From: Simmondsia chinensis
Lineage: Eukaryota > Streptophyta > Magnoliopsida > Caryophyllales > Simmondsiaceae
DNA length: 64,000 bases
NCBI GenBank assembly: GCA_018398585.1
Contig: JAGTTD010000025.1
Coordinates: 17,303,578-17,367,577, forward strand
Direction of reading: 5' to 3'
The position numbers and the translations under genes are program-made. Numbering within the stretch: position 1 is the first letter of the stretch; the number at the start of each line of letters is the position of its first letter. The notes beneath the pieces were generated by a model. It did no database searches and was not told the DNA's origin. It worked only from the letters and a program-made list of their open reading frames with translations. Positions 210 to 60,429 of the stretch are shown here, in pieces.

Positions 210-354
210 CTGCTTAGAGTTGAGGACCCTTTGGAAACAACCTTTCTTCAGGGTAACACCTTGTAGGGGTAAGACTGCGTACATCTTACTCTCCCTAGAC
301 CTGCCTTGGTAGGAGCCTCTTTGAGGCACCGGGCTTGTTGTTATTATTGTTGTG
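210..354 (+). mobile_element. 5'-truncated SINE (tail module only)
   Basis: The 145-bp insertion is bounded by a 24-bp target-site duplication with one mismatch (186-209 and 355-378, sharing ctgtatataaaaatgggg). It carries the same 3' module as the 5S-headed SINEs: an ggaaacaacctttcttcaggg-like block, then gactgcgtacatc, then gagcctctttgaggcaccggg, and a (TTG/TTA)n tail. The 5S rRNA head is missing. The tail resembles the TS/Au class of plant SINE tails. The long duplication shows that this is a LINE-mobilised insertion. Confidence 0.75.
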
Positions 355-378
355 TTTATACTGTATATAAAAATGGGG

Positions 379-737: not shown

Positions 738-972
738 AACCAAAGAGGGTACCAACACGCTGTCATCGGATACCATTAGAACTCCGAAGTTAAGCGTGCT
801 TGGGCGAGAGCAATACCAGAATGGGTGACCTTCTGGGAAGTCCTTACCCTCAGGTTGGGGACACTCGGAAACTGCCTTTCTTCTGGGGTAATACTCTGAA
901 GGGGAAAAGCTACTTACACCCCCCGACCCTACTTAGGCGGGAGCCTTTGGGGCACTGGGTATATTGATTTTA
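738..972 (+). mobile_element. 5S rRNA-derived SINE, copy A
   Basis: This is a 235-bp element between 19-bp target-site duplications (719-737 and 973-991, tacctaMtttccttcaatt, one mismatch). Its first ~105 bp matches plant 5S rRNA, including ctccgaagttaagcgtgctt, the gggcgagag block and gggtgacc..ctgggaagtcct. These correspond to the internal control region (A-box, intermediate element, C-box) used by RNA polymerase III. From about 850 it continues into a TS/Au-like tail ending gggcactgggtatattg. The long duplication and single-unit structure separate it from Cassandra TRIM elements, which carry 5S sequence inside LTRs and make 5-bp duplications. Confidence 0.88.
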
Positions 973-991
973 TACCTAATTTCCTTCAATT

Positions 992-2367: not shown

Positions 2368-2497
2368 ACAACAACAAACCCAGTGTCTGCAAAGGGCTTC
2401 AGCAAAAGCAGGGTTTGGGTGGTAGATGTACACAGCCTTCCCCCTTCAGGGGTATCCTGAAGAGAGGCTGTTTCCGAGGACCTCCAACCTGATAGAT
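2368..2497 (-). mobile_element. 5'-truncated SINE (tail module only)
   Basis: The 130-bp minus-strand insertion is flanked by a 19-bp target-site duplication (2349-2367 and 2498-2516, aaatataRgagatagaact, one mismatch). On the minus strand it reads caggttggaggtcctcgg, a block about the Cttcagg motif, and an end of actgggtttgttgttgtag. It starts at nearly the same internal point as the copy at 210-354, so it lacks the 5S head. Confidence 0.75.
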
Positions 2498-2614
2498 AAA
2501 TATAAGAGATAGAACTCTTATTATTTAATAGTAATAATTTCATATGTATTAGGCAATTGAATTGCTGCATAGCAAGTCCATTTATGACGTTCTCTCTTTT
2601 AGATGATTTATCAT

Positions 2615-2843
2615 AGAGGGTACCAATACACAAGTATCGGATCCCTTTAGAACTCCGAAGTTAAGCGTGCTTGGGCAATAGTAGTACCAGGATGGGTGAC
2701 ATTTTGGGAAGTCCTCACTCCTTAGGTTGGGGGTACTCGGAAACATCTTCTCTTCAGGGTAGCAACCTGAAGGGGGAATCTTGCGTACATTCACCCCCCA
2801 AACCTTACTTAGGTGGGAGCCCTTGGAGCACTAGGTATGTTGT
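2615..2843 (+). mobile_element. 5S rRNA-derived SINE, copy B
   Basis: The head (about 2615-2720) is 5S rRNA-like, with actccgaagttaagcgtgc, a cttgggcaatagtagtacc block and gatgggtgac. The tail runs through ggttgggggtactcgg, cttgcgtacatt, taggtgggagccc and an end of ctaggtatgttg. Boundaries are approximate. A short flanking similarity (tctttta..tttatc on both sides) may be a decayed target-site duplication with an internal indel. Confidence 0.8.
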
Positions 2844-3500
2844 AATATCTTTTATTTATCGTGAAAATGTGTATTCTCCCTTGATTAATTCGAGCGATTG
2901 CAAGATTAAGGATGATTCCGACTGTAATCTACTTACTATTATTAGTAATATGTATTTTCCAAAGAGCTCTTAAACGGTTGGCATACTGGCACTTTGCACC
3001 AGTAGTGGCTTTGGTTCATTGGTTATTTGCGTGGCAAAAAATTATTTATTGCTAAATTAATTATGTGTGTTATAGTGAATAATAGTCATAAGTTTTCATA
3101 AAATTGTTTCAGCATTATTTTTGCTATGACAATAACATTATCGTCCTTCAAGACCATAATCCATCCTCATGGTGAAATACCTATGGGAATTAAATAGGAT
3201 CTAAAACGTAGGTGTATTAATTGGTTATATACACAAAGGCAACATTTTGTTGACTTGTAAAAGTAAAAAATAAAATTAGTCAGAATAATAGTTACAGAAA
3301 CATATCAAGTAGTATATGATATAGTACAATTAATAATTTAAGAGCTAAAATGATAAATTTAGCAAAATATATAATATCAATATCTAATTTAGTTTTAGGT
3401 TTTGATTATTTTTAATTATTATTTATTTTTTACATGAGAATACATGTTATAATAAGAGTACTATGCATATAACATTAAAAACAAATATTTTATCCTATTA
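2844..3500. other. Intergenic, nothing recognised
   Basis: The sequence is AT-rich between two SINE copies, with no gene or repeat terminus recognised. Confidence 0.4.
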
Positions 3501-3519
3501 TTGATAATGATAAGTAAAC

Positions 3520-3762
3520 AGTAATATTTTCAGTGCCCCAAGGGCTCTCGCTTAAGTAGGGTCGGGGGGGGGGGGGGGGGGGGGGATGGATGTAGCACCC
3601 TGAAGGGAGGCTGTTTCCGAGAATCTTCCAACCTGAGGGGTGCAACACGAGGACTTCCCAGGAGATAACCATCTTGGTACTTCTCTCGCCCAAGAACGCT
3701 TAATTTTGGAGTTCTAATGAGATCCGGTGCTTGCGTGTTGTTACCCTCTTAGGTCATGCATC
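3520..3762 (-). mobile_element. 5S rRNA-derived SINE, copy C, with a G22 run
   Basis: The minus-strand element is bounded by a perfect 19-bp target-site duplication (3501-3519 and 3763-3781, ttgataatgataagtaaac). The 5S head lies at the right end (about 3650-3750), and the tail runs left to the agtgccccaagggctctcg block. A 22-base G run (3564-3585) replaces the short C run found at this point of the tail in other copies, apparently by homopolymer expansion. Confidence 0.88.
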
Positions 3763-3781
3763 TTGATAATGATAAGTAAAC

Positions 3782-5048
3782 GTGCTTATTAAACGAAATA
3801 GTATAGATATGCATCCAAAATATATATTATAAGCGAATTTTGCTAACAAAGAATCCATCTAGTAGAGCAGTTCCAAATTTATGTTCCCTGTTTTTGTTGG
3901 AAATATTTGTTTTATTTATCATACAAAATATATATTAAACAAACAATACATATTAACATATCTCAAATTTGAGACTAACATCAAAAGTTAGATACTTATA
4001 CGAAGAAAAAATATAATACAACACCAATTAAACACTGTCAAATTCAAGACCAATAATACTTATAAATAACAACAAGAATGTTTAGGCAAATTAAACAAAG
4101 AACGGAGTTTAGGAAAACATATCTTTGGGTTGAGGCACGTGAGAAAGCTATCCTTAGAAAGGAAATGTCGCTCCTGCACGAGTATTGCTTTTAGGCTTAA
4201 ACGCGCTCCTTTCCCAAGATTCAACAACCCGCCAGACCTCTATCAGTGCAGCAATGAAAGATCCCCGAACTACAACTACCAAGCTCACTATTTTTTTCAA
4301 GAATATATGGGATTGAATGAATAAAATATTATATGTTGTATATTATTTTCCACCATGCTCATATGCTTATATAGATAAAAAATAAATACTTAATTTTTTT
4401 CTCTTTCCATCCATAATATCCGGTCAATGCAATGAATTGCAAGTTAAACAATTTTGAGTTTATTGCTCCCTTGCCAACGGTAACAATATTATTGACCCAA
4501 TATGAGTGCTCATAATTTCATGCCTTCAATTGCACATTAGTGTTGAAATTTAACATTTTCAAACAAATAAATAAATAAAATATTTTTTAAATCAATAAAT
4601 ACATAATTTTTCCAATAGTTTTACCCTAGAATCGAAAATGTTCTCTTGATGAGCGATAATGATCAACATTTACTACTTTGCATGTAAATTACTTAGCTCA
4701 GTTATGTTCAATTCGTCCTTCTTAGGCCGTATACACAAAAATTGTTATATGGGAGGGCCGCATATAAATTCAATTGATATTTCTTCATAAAATCAATTGA
4801 CGTTAAGTGGATTAGTCGAGTGATATTTCTTGATGAGCAGATGCATACTAGCTGACGTTAAAGATGGAGTATGGAATTCTCATGCCCGAGTGACTTTTTC
4901 TTTTGTTTAATATCATCTCACAATCGAGGGCACCTCGAAATTGTTCAGGTATACATTTACTTATGAGTAAATTGCAAAAGACATACATTTTTTTTTTTAA
5001 AATTCTAGAGAATGGGTGAATCAAAGCATTTTCTTTGTGAAGTAAGAA
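3782..5048. other. Intergenic DNA downstream of the INT4-like gene
   Basis: It is AT-rich and holds the 3' flank of the minus-strand INT gene. A more GC-balanced stretch at about 4110-4290 stands out in composition, but I recognise no protein or RNA in it. Confidence 0.4.
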
Positions 5049-7724
5049 CTACGCTTGAACACCTTTGTTGTTCTTGGTATTACTGCTCCCAAGCCTGCTT
5101 GGTGTGAAACCTTGATCTAGCATCTGCTCTATCTCCTCAATAGGCATACCTTTGGTCTCAGGCACCAACAAGTATATGAAGATTAGGCTCACAGTTGATA
5201 TGCCGGCAAATAATAGGAAAGTGCTGGAGGATCCGAGGGCTTTTGTCAATGTCAAGAACGTCTCACTCACTATGAGATTTGCTGTCCAGTTAGCCACGGC
5301 TGCTATCCCTCCCCCAACACCCCTAAATCTCAAGGGGTAGATCTCTGAGTTGATGATCCATGGCACGGTTCCCATTCCTGGAGAGTAGGAGATGATGTAC
5401 GCTGCAAGGAACGCGATTGCCAAGAACCCAAATTTGCTTGGGCAACCCTCGGTGAAATACTCTCTTTTCTCCTCATGGCATGTTGCTTTCGTCATGCCCG
5501 TTTTAGCGATACAAGCTCCTGGATTAATCTGATATTACCCAAGTATTAGTATATTACAACTTTTTTAGTTAATGGTTCTCGACTAATTCTCGGATTGTAC
5601 TTACGGCCATTAGCAGTTCTCCGATGTGCAATAGGGCAAGTTGAGGACCCCTACAAAGTGGATGGCTCCATTAATAATGGTTTATACTAATTGATAAGAT
5701 TCATGTCCTAGGCTTAATACTTCTTGAGGTGCTAGGTTTGAATGTTGTACCACTTTTTAACTAATCCTTTGGGGTTATGTGTATGTGGCTAGGTCTATAT
5801 ATTGTCCGAGTTCTTTCTTTGGAGTAATAGATGTGACTTACCTCGTGATCTCCTTTATCGGCACAAAAAGCACAACCAACATTTTTCAAGCAAGTGGTGC
5901 AGCTCCAGAGCCCTGGTTTTGAGGCGGATGCATAGGCTGGGCAAGTGGCATTGGCTCCAAAGTGGAGAGATTCATCGTAGCCGATCTTAGGAGCATGAAC
6001 TGCAGCTTGGTTGAACACGATGGCCAAGACCACAAGACAAGTGATGATCCCAACCATAGAGATAATCATCAGCTTTCTCCTCCCTTGTCTGTCTACAAAC
6101 ATCATGCTAATAATGGATCCCACGGCATTGAGACCAGAAGTGATGAGAGAGAGAGCAAGGGCAGTGCTATTGGATGCAATGCCAGCCAGCTGAACTATGG
6201 TGGGACTATAGTACATAACCGTGTTGATTCCTACAAACTGTTGTGCTACTTGGACTGTAATCCCTGCATATAAACCCCTCCGGACAACCTTGTTGCCAAA
6301 GGCCATCTTGACTTTGGTCAGTATGCTTGCTTCTGCCATATCTCCTTCAAGTGCCATTTCGTTGTCAACTGATTGCTTCAGTGCCATCATCTCTTCTTGT
6401 ACTTCTTCTTCTGGATAAATCTTTGCTAATATTTCTTCTGCCTCTGAATGTCTCTCCTGATCATTTCACAAAGGGGGACAAAAGGTTTAAAGCTGATTCC
6501 TTGAACCCTACGAACCATATTTTGGAAACACGAAGAAAAGATCAAAGATGATATATTTATTTGAGTCAAACAGAGTATATTTTTCTAGTTAAAGGCGGTA
6601 CCTTTCGAAAAAGCCATCTAGGAGACTCTGGAAGAGATAACATTAGAATAAACTGTACAAGTGCTGGTAATGCAGCCACCCCAAGCATCCAACGCCACGT
6701 CCCCTTCACCTGAAACACAACAAAACGAGGTGAAAACCATATGCAACGAAGACCTAATTTCTAGTGGAAAGTGGAGGTTGGCATTTCAAAGTCCAAGGGA
6801 AACTCGTACCTCAGTGAAGCCAAGGTTGATAAGGTAGGATAAGAACTGTCCTCCTGTAATGAGCAAGCCATTGGTGCTGACAAGAGCCCCTCTAATCCTA
6901 GTTGGAGATGTCTCTGATATGTATAAAGGGGATGTCATGGATGCCATCCCGACCCCTAAACCCACGAATACCCGACCCACAATAATAACCCAAGGTGTTG
7001 GAGCAAGAGCCATGATAAGAGCTCCGATGAAGAAGAGTATGTCTGCGATTAAAATGGTCAGTCTTCTCCCAAGCTTGTCATTAAGCCAACCACCAATCCC
7101 CGCACCAATGATGGCTCCTGCAACAGCCATTGCCACAATGGTTTCCTACACATTTTATATGATGCTGTTGAATTTCATATACGGAGTAGGCGTGCACGCT
7201 GAACATGCAAGTCTTACTTATGTTCCACCCTAAAACTGATTGGTATTAGGTAGGATAGTCTAATAAAGTGATATGATCTCTTCTTTGTCATAAGACCGAT
7301 GCATGATGACTTTATAATCATACTCACATGCGTACTTTGAGTAGAAAAGTGTGCAATTAAAGAAAGAAAACTTGTAGAGAGGCAAAGAATGTCAACATAC
7401 CTGTAGCCATGTCTTTTGTTCAACCTCTTTAAAGTCTTCCTTAATGTAAAGAAGTGCTCCCGAGATCACACCTAGTATCCGATGATAAAAACCCATCAAC
7501 CAATGAGAATGTATTATAGAGGAAATTAATTTGGGTGTTAAATTTTGATAGGATATAAATAATAAAATTGAAAACATGTAAGATATACCGGTGTCATAGC
7601 CAAAGAGGAAGCCTCCAATGCCAGCGGAGAGGGCTAGCCTCATGATGTAGGGTGTCCTTCCGATTGTCCTAAAGCATTCTGTAAACTCTGTCTTGTCTGC
7701 TTTTACTGCTCCTCCTTCTACCAT
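5049..7724 (-). CDS. Inositol transporter, INT4-like, intact six-exon gene
   Basis: A major facilitator superfamily (sugar porter) protein expected to co-transport H+ and myo-inositol at the plasma membrane. Exons read from the start: 7589-7724, 7401-7471, 6810-7145, 6602-6709, 5842-6456 and 5049-5528. Every junction is GT-AG and the frame closes to 581 aa, close to Arabidopsis INT4. The N-terminus [20 protein letters not shown] matches INT4 more than INT2. Visible motifs are [13 protein letters not shown] (TM1), GRR in the first cytoplasmic loop, PESPRWL after TM6, [14 protein letters not shown] (TM7), and PETKG near the C-terminus. A Cys-rich PSI-like extracellular loop ([22 protein letters not shown]) precedes the TM10 region; INT2-4 have it. 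No frameshift or stop was found. The INT4 assignment is by similarity; transport was not tested. Confidence 0.93.
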
Positions 7725-9163
7725 TTCTGCCCTAGAGAGGAGAAAAAATATACTTTAAGGGACTTTTTCCCCTAACAAGAAGAATAGTTTAACGCTTTTT
7801 TCTCGTTTAATGAGTTGGCAACATGAAAAAAAGTATGTCATTGCATTTTATCATTAATCGATCCATTAAGCAACCATTGATAGTAATGAAAGAAAAAGAG
7901 CCACCATTGATGGTGATTTCCTTGCACTCGAGTAGTTCTAGTACATTTGCGTTTCACTTTTTTTGTTTGGTGTTTTGATATGATTGTAGGAGAGAGCTCT
8001 CCGCTCTTCATCAAGGGTCTATGAGGCCCGCTGTCCTTAATTATTAAAAATAAAGAAAACAGAACACAAAAATGAAAAAACAATTACTCACTTGTAAGCT
8101 ACGATATCTTCTATGGATCAAGCATTGAACTCGGAAATTAATTAAGTACAATATTGCCCCACTCTTTTCTTTTGTCTGAAATTCCTCTCAGTTTGAGTTT
8201 CGATGAATATCTTATATCCAAAAAGTTATACTTTTCGGGTGAGAATAATAATAATAATAAAAAACAAACATGGAAAAACAAAAACAGAAAACAAACATTT
8301 TATAGGGAAGGAAGAGAAATAAAAATGTTATTTTTGGTAAGGAGTCAGGTAATAGACAACCAAGAAGAGCAGTGAAGAGAAACAAAAGAAAATCTAAAGC
8401 AATTACAAGGCTCGGTTAAGTTTCATCCACATCCTCATTTTGCCTAATCAAACTGTCCCACTTGTTTTGCCTAAATATTTGCTGCTTTTTTTTTTTTTTT
8501 TATAATTTTCTATTGTCTAAATTTGGATAAAGACTACTAGGTTTTTTTTTTTTTTCTTTTTGGAATGATAAAAGGAACACTAAGAAGTCTATTAACAAAT
8601 AGATCTTATTAATATTTCTTCATGAACGAGCTTACTTGATTTTTCATTTTAAGTTTCCAAGAAAATAAACGTTGGATTTTTAGGAGAAAATTTAGAAACA
8701 AAAATAACAGAAATGAAAATGAACCAAATAAGTCTTTCAATTATGTTTGACAAAAGGATTAAGAAATATTAAAAAAAAAAAAAAAAAAAAAAGAAAAGGT
8801 AATCTTTTGATACTTTATACTCATATCCTCTTGTTGACTTTTTAAAAACCGTAACTCTTATATGTCATGTAATTCTTTTTTAAGATAATTAAATGCTCTT
8901 TAATTATAGTTTTTAACCACATGAAAAGCAGTGGCTCAGCTTCTTCCACTTAGGAGTCATTTGGGCTTGATTAAACTTGTTAGTCATTTAGGCCTTTGTT
9001 TCAACTTAGGAGTCGTTTGGACTTGGATTTGGATGTCATATTTTTGGACGTGGACATGGAAGTCTCTTAGTAATGTTTGCTAATTGAAATGAAGAGACCA
9101 AATTCTCGCTGGTCAAAAAGAAGAGAAATGTAATTTGATTCATGGTTCCATAGTTGTGTAAGG
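7725..9163 (-). other. Upstream (promoter) region of the INT4-like gene
   Basis: This is about 1.4 kb of AT-rich DNA upstream of the minus-strand start codon, ending at the Copia-1 insertion. It has poly-A/T tracts (8486-8502, 8770-8793). I see no definite promoter element. Short open frames here have no recognisable domain. Confidence 0.4.
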
Positions 9164-24803: not shown

Positions 24804-25848
24804 ATGGCACAAGTGAAGGCTAGATGCTTCGGCACCGTGTTTAAGACTTCGTATGTATTGCGGTGGCCTTCCTTGCCGGTATTGGAGGGTTTCTTTTTGG
24901 CTATAACACTGGTAAATTATTCTAATTATTTTTCATTTTTGAGAAATTAATTAAAAGTTATGTTCCCCTATATTTTTGATCTTTTATGTGCAATGTAATT
25001 AGCTTATAGTTTTGATCCCATAAGAGTTAGTACGATTCATTTGATTAGTTATACTCATCCGAATTGATTGTGGGGTGTAGGTGTTATATCGGGCGCTCTT
25101 CTTTATATTAAATATGGGGTTGAAGAGGTTAAAAAGGAAAGATGGTTTCAGGTACACCTTCTCGTAACATTTACTTTTAATCTATATCTTCGTATTAGTA
25201 TCGTCGACTATGGTTAATCTTGTTGTTTTATTGATTTGATCATCAGGAAATGATAGTAGCAATGACGTTGTCTTGGGCATCCCTAGGGGCAAGCATTGGT
25301 GAATTCCGGAATGACACGGTAGGAACAAAGCAGTCCATGCTCATGGCTGACATCCTCTTCCTCAGTGGAGCCATCGTCATGGCCATCTCCCCTGCACTTT
25401 GGATGATCATCTTTGGAAGAATTTTACTCAGTTTAGGGGTTGGGATGGGTTTAGTGGCAGCACACCATTATATTTCAAAGACGTCTCCTGCTAGGATAAG
25501 AGGTGCCCTCGGTGCCACCAACAATGTCGTTATGACTGATGGTAAATTCTTATCTTACCTCATTGATCTTGGTTTCACAAATGTATGTATGACATATAAA
25601 AATTTGTTAATTTATGTTTGAGACAAATTAACATTTTTCTTCTAATAGTAGCTTCTTCTTCTTTTTCAACTTTTACCATTAAAATCCTTGGTTTATAACT
25701 CATTTATTCGTACAAAATTATGTTACAACTGCAGGTTAAGGGAGCATGGCATTGGATGTTTGAAGTTGCAGCCCTTTCGATTGCAGTACAAGTTATATTG
25801 AACGAGTCGTATAACAAAAGCATTCTGCCTCCTCAACCTTCTGTTTGA
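24804..25848 (+). pseudogene. Inositol transporter (INT) pseudogene, exons 1-4 only
   Basis: The exons match the downstream intact gene: 24804-24911, 25081-25151 (71 nt), 25247-25582 (336 nt) and 25735 onward. Exon 1 is shortened at the N-terminus and has a 1-bp deletion in the TM1 codons (near 24862), shifting the frame. The conserved GYDTG reads GYNTG. Exon 3 keeps an open frame (EMIVAMTLSWASLGASIGEF..) but the loop GRR/GRK motif is GTK. Exon 4 (VKGAWHWMFEVAALS) degenerates after IQV-like VQVIL and ends at a TGA (25846-25848). Exons 5 and 6 are absent. Splice sites remain GT-AG, so the break is recent relative to the duplication. Confidence 0.9.
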
Positions 25849-36645: not shown

Positions 36646-36690
<45 letters not shown>

Positions 36691-52756: not shown

Positions 52757-55700
52757 ATGGTGGAAGGAGGAGTTGTGAAGGCTAAAGATGTCCACTTCAA
52801 AGAATGCTTTGGCACCATGTTTAAGACTCCATACGTGTTGAGGCTGGCCTTCTCTGCTGGTATCGGAGGGCTTCTTTTCGGCTATGACACTGGTAAATTC
52901 TCTTGTTAAGTTCCCCTGTATATTTTATTCTTTTATCTTGTATGTGCAATATAATCAGCTTTTATAGTTTTGATCCAATAAGAGTTTAGTTTGATTTATT
53001 TAATTAATTATACTCAACCTAATTGGTTGTGTGGTGTAGGAGTTATATCAGGCGCTCTTCTCTATATTAAAGACGAGTTTGAAGAGGTTGCAAAGAAAAC
53101 ATGGCTTCAGGTATACATTCTCGCGACATTTACTTTTAATATTCTTTTTCATATTAGTATTGCTGACTACAATTAATCTTTTTTTGTTTTCTTTTTGGAT
53201 TTGGTAATCAGGAAACAATAGTAGCAATGGCAGTGGCTGGGGCCATCCTAGGGGCAGGCGTCGGTGGATTCCTGAACGACAAGGTAGGAAGGAAGCCGAC
53301 CATGATCGTGGCTGACATCCTCTTCCTTAGTGGAGCCATCATTATGGCCGTCGCCCCTGCGCCTTGGGTGATCATCTTTGGAAGGATTATAGTCGGTTTA
53401 GGAGTTGGGATGGCTTCCATGACAGCACCCCTTTATATTTCAGAGACCTCCCCTGCTAAGATAAGAGGTGCACTTGGTGCAACCAACAGTGTCCTCATCA
53501 CCGGTGGTCAATTCTTATCTTACCTTATCAATCTTGGTTTCACAAATGTATGTAAGACATATATAAATTCGTTAATTGATGTTTGAAACAAATTGAAACA
53601 TTTTTATTCCAGTAGTAGTTTCTTCTTCTTTTTCAATTTTTACCATCAAAATCATTGGCTCATAAATCATTCATTTGTATGAATTTATTTTTGCAAATAT
53701 AGGTCAACGGACCATGGCGTTGGATGCTTGGAGTTGCAGCCCTTCCGGCTGCTATACAAGTTGTATTAATGGTGTTTCTTCCCGAGTCTCCTAGATGGTT
53801 GTATAGAAAGGTAAATGCTAGTCAAACAATACATCAGATTATCACTCTAAATACATGTGGGAAAGAGTCAAATCAAATATAAAAGTAATTATTTGGTAGT
53901 AAAATTATCTTTTTTATTTTTAGGAATTAGATATTTAATTGGCATTGAGTTAATATATAAAAAGAGTATATGAAGTATTTTAGTTACTGGGTGCAAGAGA
54001 TTTTTTATTTTTTTTTAATATATAAGATGCACCAAATTTAAGCTAGTCTTTTCCCGATGTTTACACTTAAATAATTTTAATTTATTATCCAATGTATGTA
54101 CTTTATTAGTGGTATTTCACTAATTATCGTTTTGATGTAGTGGAAACTTTTTGTCCCAAAAAAAAAAAAATTGTCGGCTATGTTTGGCTGTAACTGTTAG
54201 TTGTTAGCATTTAGCTGTTAGCTGTTAGCGTTTAACATTTAACTGTTAGCTTATTAAGAGCCATTAGCTGTTAGCTGATGGGTAATGTGTTTGGTAAATT
54301 AAGATGAAAAAGAAGGGGCAAAATGATAAATAGAATTTCATTAATAGCGTTCGAAAAGCTAAAAGCTAAATTTTTTAGCTTTTGAAAAGTTACTTTTCGA
54401 AAGCTAAACGCCATAAAAAATGTTAAAAATAAAATTTTTACCAAACAGCACTACTAGCTGTTTGACTAGTTAAAACGTTAAACGCTATGAAAAACACTAC
54501 GAAAAGCTGCTTGCTAAATATAGCCATAGTGGAAACTTGAATGCATGAGAGGAAATTCTACTACCATCCCTCTATAAAAACTTGGATGGAGTTTTGGTGC
54601 ATTTTAAAGAAAGGATAACTGTGTTATAATATATAGAAAATATGCCCATAATTTTCTGCCAAAGGAAGATGTACATACTATAAGTTAAGATTTTCATGTT
54701 TATTTCTTTTTTGATATTTCGCTAAATTAATTGATGGATTATAGAACAAAATCCCAGAAGCAGAGGCGATACTAGAAAAAATCTACTCGCCAGAGGAGGT
54801 GAGGGAAGAAATGGAGGCATTGAAGGTCTCTATAGAGAATGAGATTGCTGAGAAGGGGGACTTAGCGGATGGTGGAATATTTGAGAAGGTGAAAAAGGCA
54901 TGGGGCAACATTGCAGTGAGGAGGGGGCTATATGCAGGGATTGCGACCCTAGTAGCCCAACAGTTTGTTGGGATCAACACAGTTATGTACTACAGTCCCA
55001 CTATTGTCCAAATGGCAGGGTATGCGTCCAATAGTGTGGCCCTCAAGCTCTCCCTGGTCACTTCTGGCCTTAATGCTATTGGATCTACCATAAGCATGTT
55101 CGTGGTGGACCGATTTGGGCGGAGGAGGCTCATGCTCGTCTCCATGGCGGCTCTTATTAGTTGTCTTGTTGTCCTATCTGGTATCTTCTTTGAGGCGGCC
55201 AAGGTTGCCCCTAAGATTGACCATATTGAGACCATGAATTTCGGAGCTAACTCTACCTGCCCTGTGTATGCCTCTGCCCTTGATCCTTCCTCTTGGAACT
55301 GTATGACTTGTCTAAGAGCCTCTAAAGATTGTGCCTTCTGTACCAATGCTGCCGGCGAGGTAATTATCATGCACCTCTGATATTTTTAGTAATCTTTCAC
55401 TATCCAACATTAATATTTGAGTATAGAATAGACATATGAAAACATTATTTCAAATTATCTTCTGGTCAATTATTTTGACCAAATCAATGAGAAATGAGTT
55501 TAAAGATATACTTTAATTAACATAATAAACAAAGTTGATTATGTTTCTCATATTGATAGTTGACTTATGCTTGTTTATACGTGGTCATATGACAAAAGTC
55601 CCTTCCTGGAGCCTGTGTAATGGCAACAAGTACAATAAAGAAACAATGCACTGGGGAGCATCGCACATACTTTACACAAGGGTGCCCTAGCAAGTTCGGG

Positions 55701-56102
55701 TTTTGGCCGGTTTTATTCCTTGGTGCCTACATTATTACATACTCTCCGGGTATGGGAACGGTGCCATGGATCTTAAACTCGGAGCTGTACCCCTTGAGAT
55801 ACAGAGGAGTTTGCGGAGGGATAGGGGCAGTCACCCTATGGTGTGCCAACCTCATCGTTAGTGAGACCTTCTTAACATTGACCGACGCAATTGGTACTGC
55901 TGGAACCTTCTTGCTTTATGCTTGTTTCGCAATTGTGGGTTCCGTCTTCATCTTCTTCCTTGTTCCTGAGACACGAGGGGTTCCTATGGAGGAAATTGAG
56001 CGCGTGCTCGAGAAGGGGTTCCGCCCTAGCTTGTGTGGTGGTAAAAACGACGACCACCGTGACCAAGAACAAAATGATGGATCACATTCGCGCCATGGTT
56101 GA
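52757..56102 (+). CDS. Inositol transporter (INT family), intact six-exon gene
   Basis: A major facilitator (sugar porter) protein expected to co-transport H+ and myo-inositol. Exons: 52757-52892, 53040-53110, 53212-53547, 53703-53810, 54745-55359 and 55599-56102. All junctions are GT-AG, and the first five exons equal the minus-strand INT gene in length. The product is 589 aa. Visible features are [13 protein letters not shown] in TM1, GRK in loop 2-3, [43 protein letters not shown], and [12 protein letters not shown] near the C-terminus. A Cys-rich PSI-like loop ([23 protein letters not shown]) spans the exon 5/6 junction. The N-terminus ([14 protein letters not shown]) is more INT2-like and the rest mixed, so no numbered symbol is assigned. 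Intron 4 carries a MITE. The closest relative in the window is the 24.8-kb pseudogene. No stop or frameshift was seen. Confidence 0.93.
54138..54538. mobile_element. MITE in INT intron 4
   Basis: A ~377-bp insert lies between direct repeats tagtggaaactt (54138-54149 and 54527-54538). The inner ends are imperfect inverted repeats: ggctatgtttggc at 54176 and the complement of gctaaatatagcca at 54513-54526. The interior repeats the octamer-like ttagctg/gttagc units and is mainly self-complementary. It is hAT-like by end sequence, but the 12-bp flank repeat is longer than a standard 8-bp duplication. Confidence 0.65.
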
Positions 56103-56403
56103 ATAATTTATTTTTCTTTTCTTCTTCTTCTTTTTTTTTTTTTTTTTGTTTAAATATCAACGTGATGGCTCATTGTCAGCATTATCTAGCCAGCCTAATT
56201 ATTATTTGTTTAAACTTTCAGCTTTGTAATTATCTTGTTGAACAAGTGTCGGAGATTGTTTTTTTCGGTGTTAACCGCTTTGACATTTGTGTGTCTTCGA
56301 AGATTAGGAAGATGTAATTGCCAACTTACTTTTCTTCAATGCTAGCTTATTATTGTTAATTAATTATATTATCATCATTTTGTATGTTATTGTTCCCTAT
56401 ATC

Positions 56404-56663
56404 AGGGTTCATTTACCAGGTAGTAAAGCACCGGATCCTATTAAAACTCCGAAGTTAAGTATGTTTGGGCGAGAGTAGTACTAGGATGAATGATCTCCCG
56501 GGAAGTCCTCGTGCTGCCAACCCTATAAGATTGGGAGTCCTCGAAAACAGTCTCTCCGCAAGATTACACCCTGAACGGGTAAGACTGCGTATATCTACAC
56601 CTCCCAGACCCCATTTATGCGGGAGCCTTTGAGGCCATGAGTCTGTTGTTGTTGTTGTTGTTG
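56404..56663 (+). mobile_element. 5S rRNA-derived SINE, copy E (longest, best preserved)
   Basis: The 260-bp element has a 16-bp target-site duplication (56388-56403 and 56664-56679, tattgttccYtatatc, one mismatch). Nearly the whole 5S rRNA is present: gcaccggatcctat, aactccgaagttaagtatg, ttgggcgagagtagtacta, then aatgatctcccgggaag and tcctcgtgctgcc. A TS/Au-like tail follows (gtaagactgcgtatatct, gcgggagcctttgagg) ending in (TTG)6. It lies in the 3' flank of the INT gene. Confidence 0.92.
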
Positions 56664-56679
56664 TATTGTTCCCCATATC

Positions 56680-60395: not shown

Positions 60396-60429
<34 letters not shown>

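Follow-up and report, generated by a model that had tools for sequence, protein, structure and literature searches.

SINEs of plants are described as tRNA-derived in PMC9033089, and nearly all as such in PMC10741241. In a window of 64,000 nucleotides from the genome of Simmondsia chinensis (the whole stretch of DNA that was analysed), four copies are found of an element of 234-260 bp in which a 5S rRNA sequence is followed directly, in 4/4 copies, by a common tail. The question raised by this locus is what kind of mobile element unites these two parts. Judged from sequence, the elements are very probably 5S-headed SINEs of the SINE3 type, which would be transcribed by Pol III and mobilised by an RTE LINE via target-primed reverse transcription. 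The copies, their target-site duplications and two insertions formed of the tail only are as follows.

210-360, plus strand: insertion made up of tail alone, probably from a LINE truncated at its 5' end; flanked by duplications at 192-209 and 361-378 (18 bp, exact)
718-737 and 972-991, plus strand: target-site duplication of copy 1, 20 bp with 1 mismatch, read from the sequence
738-971, plus strand: copy 1, subfamily A; 5S part at about 739-856, LINE-derived tail at about 852-971
2368-2496, minus strand: insertion made up of tail alone, derived from either the LINE or the SINE by 5' truncation; flanked by duplications at 2348-2367 and 2497-2516 (20 bp, 1 mismatch)
About 2606-2853, plus strand: copy 2, a 5S-headed SINE with its best alignment to subfamily A (82.7% to the A consensus)
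3501-3519 and 3763-3781, plus strand: target-site duplication of copy 3, 19 bp, exact
3520-3762, minus strand: copy 3, subfamily C; complete 5S 3' end kept (CTCGTGTTGCACCCC then TCAGGTTGG)
56388-56403 and 56664-56679, plus strand: target-site duplication of copy 4, 16 bp with 1 mismatch
56404-56663, plus strand: copy 4, subfamily E; start at 5S +1, near-complete 5S, LINE tail and (TTG)n end

A clean target-site duplication was not found in the flanks of copy 2, which hold a broken one only (TCTTTTAgatgaTTTATC versus TCTTTTATTTATC), and the 5' junction of copy 3 is longer by about 8 bases. The original prediction of three copies with duplications of 16-19 bp was right as to the three copies, but the lengths are 20, 19 and 16 bp. 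The (TTG)n-ended tail that it ascribed to the elements is found in copy 4 only, copies 1 and 3 belonging to subfamilies that end in GTTGCTTTT or a similar sequence. The element profile was built from an alignment that includes the four window copies, so that their re-detection is by construction; the two tail-only copies lie outside that alignment.

The identity of the head is given by the Rfam 5S_rRNA model, for which the cut-off is 38 bits. The four window copies score 52.3-59.2 bits, each over the whole model, which bears out the near-complete 5S rRNA originally predicted for them; SINE copies in general reach 52-78 bits, and 40/40 of the fetched copies that were tested exceed the cut-off. 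A tRNA-type plant SINE, with a tRNA head and boxes A and B, is ruled out by this assignment of the head to 5S rRNA. The best 47 5S matches scored, out of 51,838 candidates, reach 97.6-112.8 bits and are located in two tandem groups on contig C8, plus one on contig C29 (locus L071, C29:34924734-34924852), a strong lone match of 111 bits outside the C8 groups. Heads were also aligned to the genome's 5S genes, as had been proposed at the outset, and consensus A is identical to the 5S gene at 76/80 positions (gene positions 26-105). The promoter boxes of consensuses A and E agree with the 5S gene at 15/15 bases of box A, 6/6 of the IE and 16/18 of box C, the two remaining bases of box C differing from present 5S genes. 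Some of the head positions that differ from present 5S genes may be ancestral, to judge by angiosperm 5S sequences. Box C agrees throughout with the consensus in 9/40 A copies and 10/30 E copies. Conservation among A copies is 0.975 in box A, 0.935 in box C, 0.960 in the rest of the head and 0.935 in the tail, and among E copies it is 0.959, 0.933, 0.942 and 0.938, respectively; as the boxes are hardly better conserved than the remainder of the element in either set, selection on the promoter is not claimed. In the predicted folds, the heads retain a closed shape with three branches (the C head having been assembled by eye). The E consensus lacks four consecutive Ts ahead of the terminal TTG repeats, and hence a terminator of its own.

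Since the 40/40 tested copies and the four window copies pass the Rfam 5S cut-off, these SINEs might enter annotations as 5S rRNA genes scattered through the genome, and they are easily mistaken for real ones. The SINE finder AnnoSINE (PMC8825457, PMC11490119) discards candidates nearly identical to known RNAs (E 1e-15 by default; PMC8825457), a filter that might drop some of the best-preserved copies.

In this genome it is the RTE LINE whose 3' end forms the tail, a finding that goes beyond the original prediction, as do the presence of at least three subfamilies and the limitation of the (TTG)n end to one of them. With a plant RTE protein as the RTE-clade reverse transcriptase query, 11,207 candidates were obtained in the genome, of which 140 were scored as matches, up to 68% identical. 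In 10/10 of the RTE LINEs fetched from among these 140, the tail is present downstream of the reverse transcriptase (L107 being the weakest case), starting about 0.8-1.2 kb past the queried piece; single LINE copies share 72-87% identity with the consensuses of the SINE tail. At the point matching the SINE's 5S end, LINEs L109 and L112 read CTCAGGTTGGG. The tail in all ten LINEs, together with this alignment at the junction, indicates that the element consists of two parts, 5S rRNA and LINE 3' end. Two reverse-transcriptase matches on contig C24 (17743-18222 and 26252-26731) stand in stop-free frames of 5,333 and 4,222 codons, which are oddly long. A further locus (L105) has an RTE LINE whose end is followed, after about 500 bases, by a copy of subfamily E (L105:1457-1713).

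The tail also occurs by itself. In the 139,299 bases flanking 70 copies there are 35 extra matches to the profile, 11 of them with a 5S head (10 near full-length and 1 head fragment) and 24 without, including 3 cut by the end of the locus. Eighteen headless copies were examined: three (L083, L088 and L089) reach far into the LINE 3' region by profile search, others do so by eye only (T-rich sequence upstream), and the remaining ones begin close to the onset of likeness between SINE and LINE, so that truncated SINEs are possible among them. A tRNA-headed sister family sharing the tail was considered but not supported, as no tRNA was found by ARAGORN in the 18 tail-only copies or within up to 200 nt upstream, a search that degenerate heads could escape.

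The genome searched comprises 831 Mb in 35 contigs, about 26 of them being of chromosome size by hand count. From the searches with copies 1, 4 and 3, the numbers of candidates scored were 40 of 9,087, 40 of 9,590 and 40 of 5,355, respectively, and the 80 scored rows obtained with copies 1 and 4 are spread over 25 contigs, with elements of 240-260 bp. The genome search with copy E, as proposed in the original prediction, gave subfamily E copies with duplications and TTG ends. The exact pattern of the head-tail junction has 1,105 matches in the genome (576 + 529) versus 0 for the reversed pattern used as a control. The joining of head and tail is thus non-random, and the chance co-occurrence of 5S and tail, named beforehand as a possible objection, is not borne out at a junction repeated in more than 1,000 places. 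The pattern recovers 25/103 search-picked copies (6/30 in E) and 2/14 unselected ones (1/4 in the window and 1/10 in flanks). As it catches only part of the copies, the true copy number would run to thousands; a very rough estimate, subject to wide error, is 4,500-8,000. In the 70 A and E loci and the window, 84/85 matches to the 5S core are followed by the LINE 3' end on the same strand, a count that allows head and tail profiles to overlap (38/85 if they may not) and is weaker evidence than the genome-wide pattern count, as the 70 loci are mostly search-picked copies; the exception is a head fragment of 38 nt.

How these copies were inserted can be read from their ends. Altogether 104 copies were examined: 40 in subfamily A, 30 and then 20 more in E, and 14 in C, with the copies from the window counted in these three sets. 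Duplications were scored as matches minus twice the mismatches, with a threshold of at least 10 and mismatched flank pairs as the control. This threshold is reached in 77/104 copies versus 46/4,720 mismatched pairs: in A, 29/40 versus 10/1,200 (lengths 13-23 bp); in E, 23/30 versus 5/1,200, and 15/20 versus 8/1,200 for the 20 further copies; and in C, 10/14 versus 23/1,120. In the remaining 27/104 copies no duplication was found at this score. Lengths are variable, mostly 12-23 bp across the A, E and C copies examined. The 5' ends are fixed at one base: in A and E, the commonest base has a fraction of 0.27-0.67 across the 60 upstream bases, climbing to 0.8-1.0 inside the element's first two bases, and the flanks of different copies are unalike. 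Duplications and fixed 5' ends are marks of target-primed reverse transcription rather than of LTR integration.

These observations bear directly on Cassandra-like TRIMs, in which the 5S sequence resides in the LTR of a short LTR retrotransposon, and of which the present copies would be solo LTRs or fragments. Cassandra likewise brings a 5S promoter into a plant retroelement, and 5S sequences in its LTRs are widespread in plants according to passages of PMC10853983 and PMC10886601. It is, though, an LTR element, for which duplications of 5 bp are expected and not the 12-23 bp mostly seen here; the present unit of 240-260 bp ends in a LINE 3' end, different copies have unalike flanks, and no interior region is apparent. 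Paired flanking LTRs, the other objection named beforehand, were not found in the own flanks of 40 A and 30 E copies. In the A copies the 5' and 3' flanks of the same copy resemble each other about as little as mismatched flanks do (maximum score 29 versus 26), and only 4/30 E copies have a flank score above 25, of which L089 (107) and L075 (47) involve diverged local repeats, L087 (31) two tail fragments, and L095 (29) is marginal. The Cassandra or LTR reading is ruled out for the examined copies by duplication length, flanks and LINE tail, and as a general account of the elements it is extremely improbable. The same duplications and flanks, with the joined head and tail, uphold the predicted SINE family, as opposed to a TRIM, its head coming from 5S rRNA and its tail being of the RTE/TS type.

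Three subfamilies or more make up the family; copy 1 represents A, copy 3 represents C and copy 4 represents E. Subfamilies A and C start with ACC(A/T)AAGAGGGTACCAACACG and end near GTTGCTTTT, the motif ACC[A/T]AAGAGGG being common to their copies, and subfamily E starts with AGGGTTCATTTACC (AGGGTT), aligned with position +1 of the 5S gene, and has the (TTG)n end. The 5S 3' end is kept at the junction in C (CTCGTGTTGCACCCC-TCAGGTTGG) and in E (CTCGTGTTGCCAACCC-TATAAGGTTGG), and the junction of A is about 8 bases shorter than that of C. In the C copies (3520-3762 of the window, and others among loci L134-L147), the 5' end GAGGG...CAACACG nearly matches the reverse complement of the sequence made up of the 3' end of 5S and the opening bases of the tail (CGTGTTG...CCCTC); it looks as though the closing helix had been rebuilt in a different register.

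The recurrence of these junctions speaks to another possibility, namely that the copies are one-off retropseudogenes, formed by repeated independent fusions of 5S and LINE ends through template switching, with no replicating SINE lineage. The junction does resemble a template switch, and headless insertions with the same tail are common. Independent fusions should, however, give scattered junctions, and what is found is the same few junctions and diagnostic changes across copies (ACC[A/T]AAGAGGG in A and C, TATAAGGTTGG in E), with the best copies 98% identical to one consensus in both A and E; this explanation is accordingly very unlikely. A refinement of the SINE reading holds that E and A/C captured 5S RNA separately, as they differ at the 5' end, at the junction (TATAAGG versus CTCAGG) and at the tail end. 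On the other hand, the A and E consensuses share departures from the 5S genes (ACCAGG versus ACTAAG in the genes, and CTCCTGG versus CTCTTGG), some of which may simply be the ancestral 5S state, and two separate births appear possible but rather doubtful.

Most likely, the cycle of these 5S-headed SINEs comprises three steps. Pol III would make the SINE RNA from the internal 5S promoter; the RTE LINE protein would recognise the LINE-like 3' end of this RNA; and the same protein would then copy the RNA into the nicked target by target-primed reverse transcription. As for their birth, an RTE reverse transcriptase that had reached the end of its own RNA in copying probably jumped to a mature 5S rRNA, entering this new template at the 3' end and continuing to the 5' end. 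Such a template switch is suggested by the start of E at 5S +1 and by the 5S 3' end kept at the junction in E and C. We would propose only tentatively that this is the first 5S-headed SINE lineage of plants, that it was born by an RTE template switch, and that its RNA may continue to be folded and transported in the manner of 5S rRNA, with TFIIIA or ribosomal protein L5 as its binding partner. If so, such transport would offer a ready route, by the 5S pathway, to the translating ribosome where the LINE protein is made.

SINEs derived from 5S rRNA reportedly form the class SINE3 of Kapitonov and Jurka in 2003. The excerpts covered describe SINE3 elements that, like the present family, have a 5S-derived head with an internal Pol III promoter and a LINE-dependent tail, and are short and non-coding; the hosts named in those excerpts are vertebrates, insects and fungi, whereas the present host is a flowering plant. 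BovB LINEs belong to the RTE clade. A similar layout of 5S head and LINE 3' end, likened here by description, is listed for Ped-1 of the springhare, which has a 5S head and a BovB tail (Table 1, PMC3747384); its host being an animal, a separate origin from the plant family is presumed. Among plants, the same source (PMC3747384) describes a tobacco TS SINE whose tail is common to RTE-1_STu, with about 100 RTE-derived bases and TTG repeats as in subfamily E, a likeness again by description, but whose head is tRNA-related and not 5S. Au-like SINEs end in T tracts in that description (PMC3747384), and a short 3' T stretch is also present in many A and C copies; they are, though, classed as tRNA-type in a table of PMC9033089, in contrast to the 5S head here. 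The latter paper also mentions a 37-bp Angio-domain at the 3' end of plant tRNA-type SINEs (PMC9033089).

No report of a 5S-headed plant SINE was found in the literature searched, outside Repbase, Dfam, SINEBase and most subscription papers. SINE3 sequences are said in a passage of PMC3095306 to occur in eukaryotes 'including plants', the Cassandra paper being cited for plants, and Cassandra has been proposed, in an excerpt of PMC10886601, to stem from a SINE3 inserted in an LTR; PMC11709435 is among the literature cited. The present family implies that plants can have SINE3-type SINEs, and it need not be the ancestor of Cassandra. An abundant 5S-headed lineage, with its LINE partner identified in the same genome, departs from the tRNA-derived picture of plant SINEs.

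A few minor observations concern the distribution and surroundings of the copies. SINE junctions favour the chromosome arms, 59/80 listed matches on contigs C1 and C2 being in the outer 40% of the chromosome. Long runs of G or C are present in the window at 3567-3585 (approximate), 36649-36688 and 60397-60429; one of these, a G run on the plus strand, lies inside the tail of copy 3, and in some tail copies elsewhere in the genome the C-rich spot of the tail has likewise grown into a longer run of C. The window further contains an inositol transporter gene for whose spliced form the closest named relatives, among the best 120 of 7,978 matches, are from Caryophyllales (Silene, 81%; Mesembryanthemum, Nepenthes, Beta, Saponaria and Drosera, 77-79%). 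Inositol transporter genes or gene pieces are located at 5112-7721 (minus strand), 25071-25609 (plus strand, a match to part of the gene only) and 52760-56015 (plus strand), and are apparently diverged duplicates.
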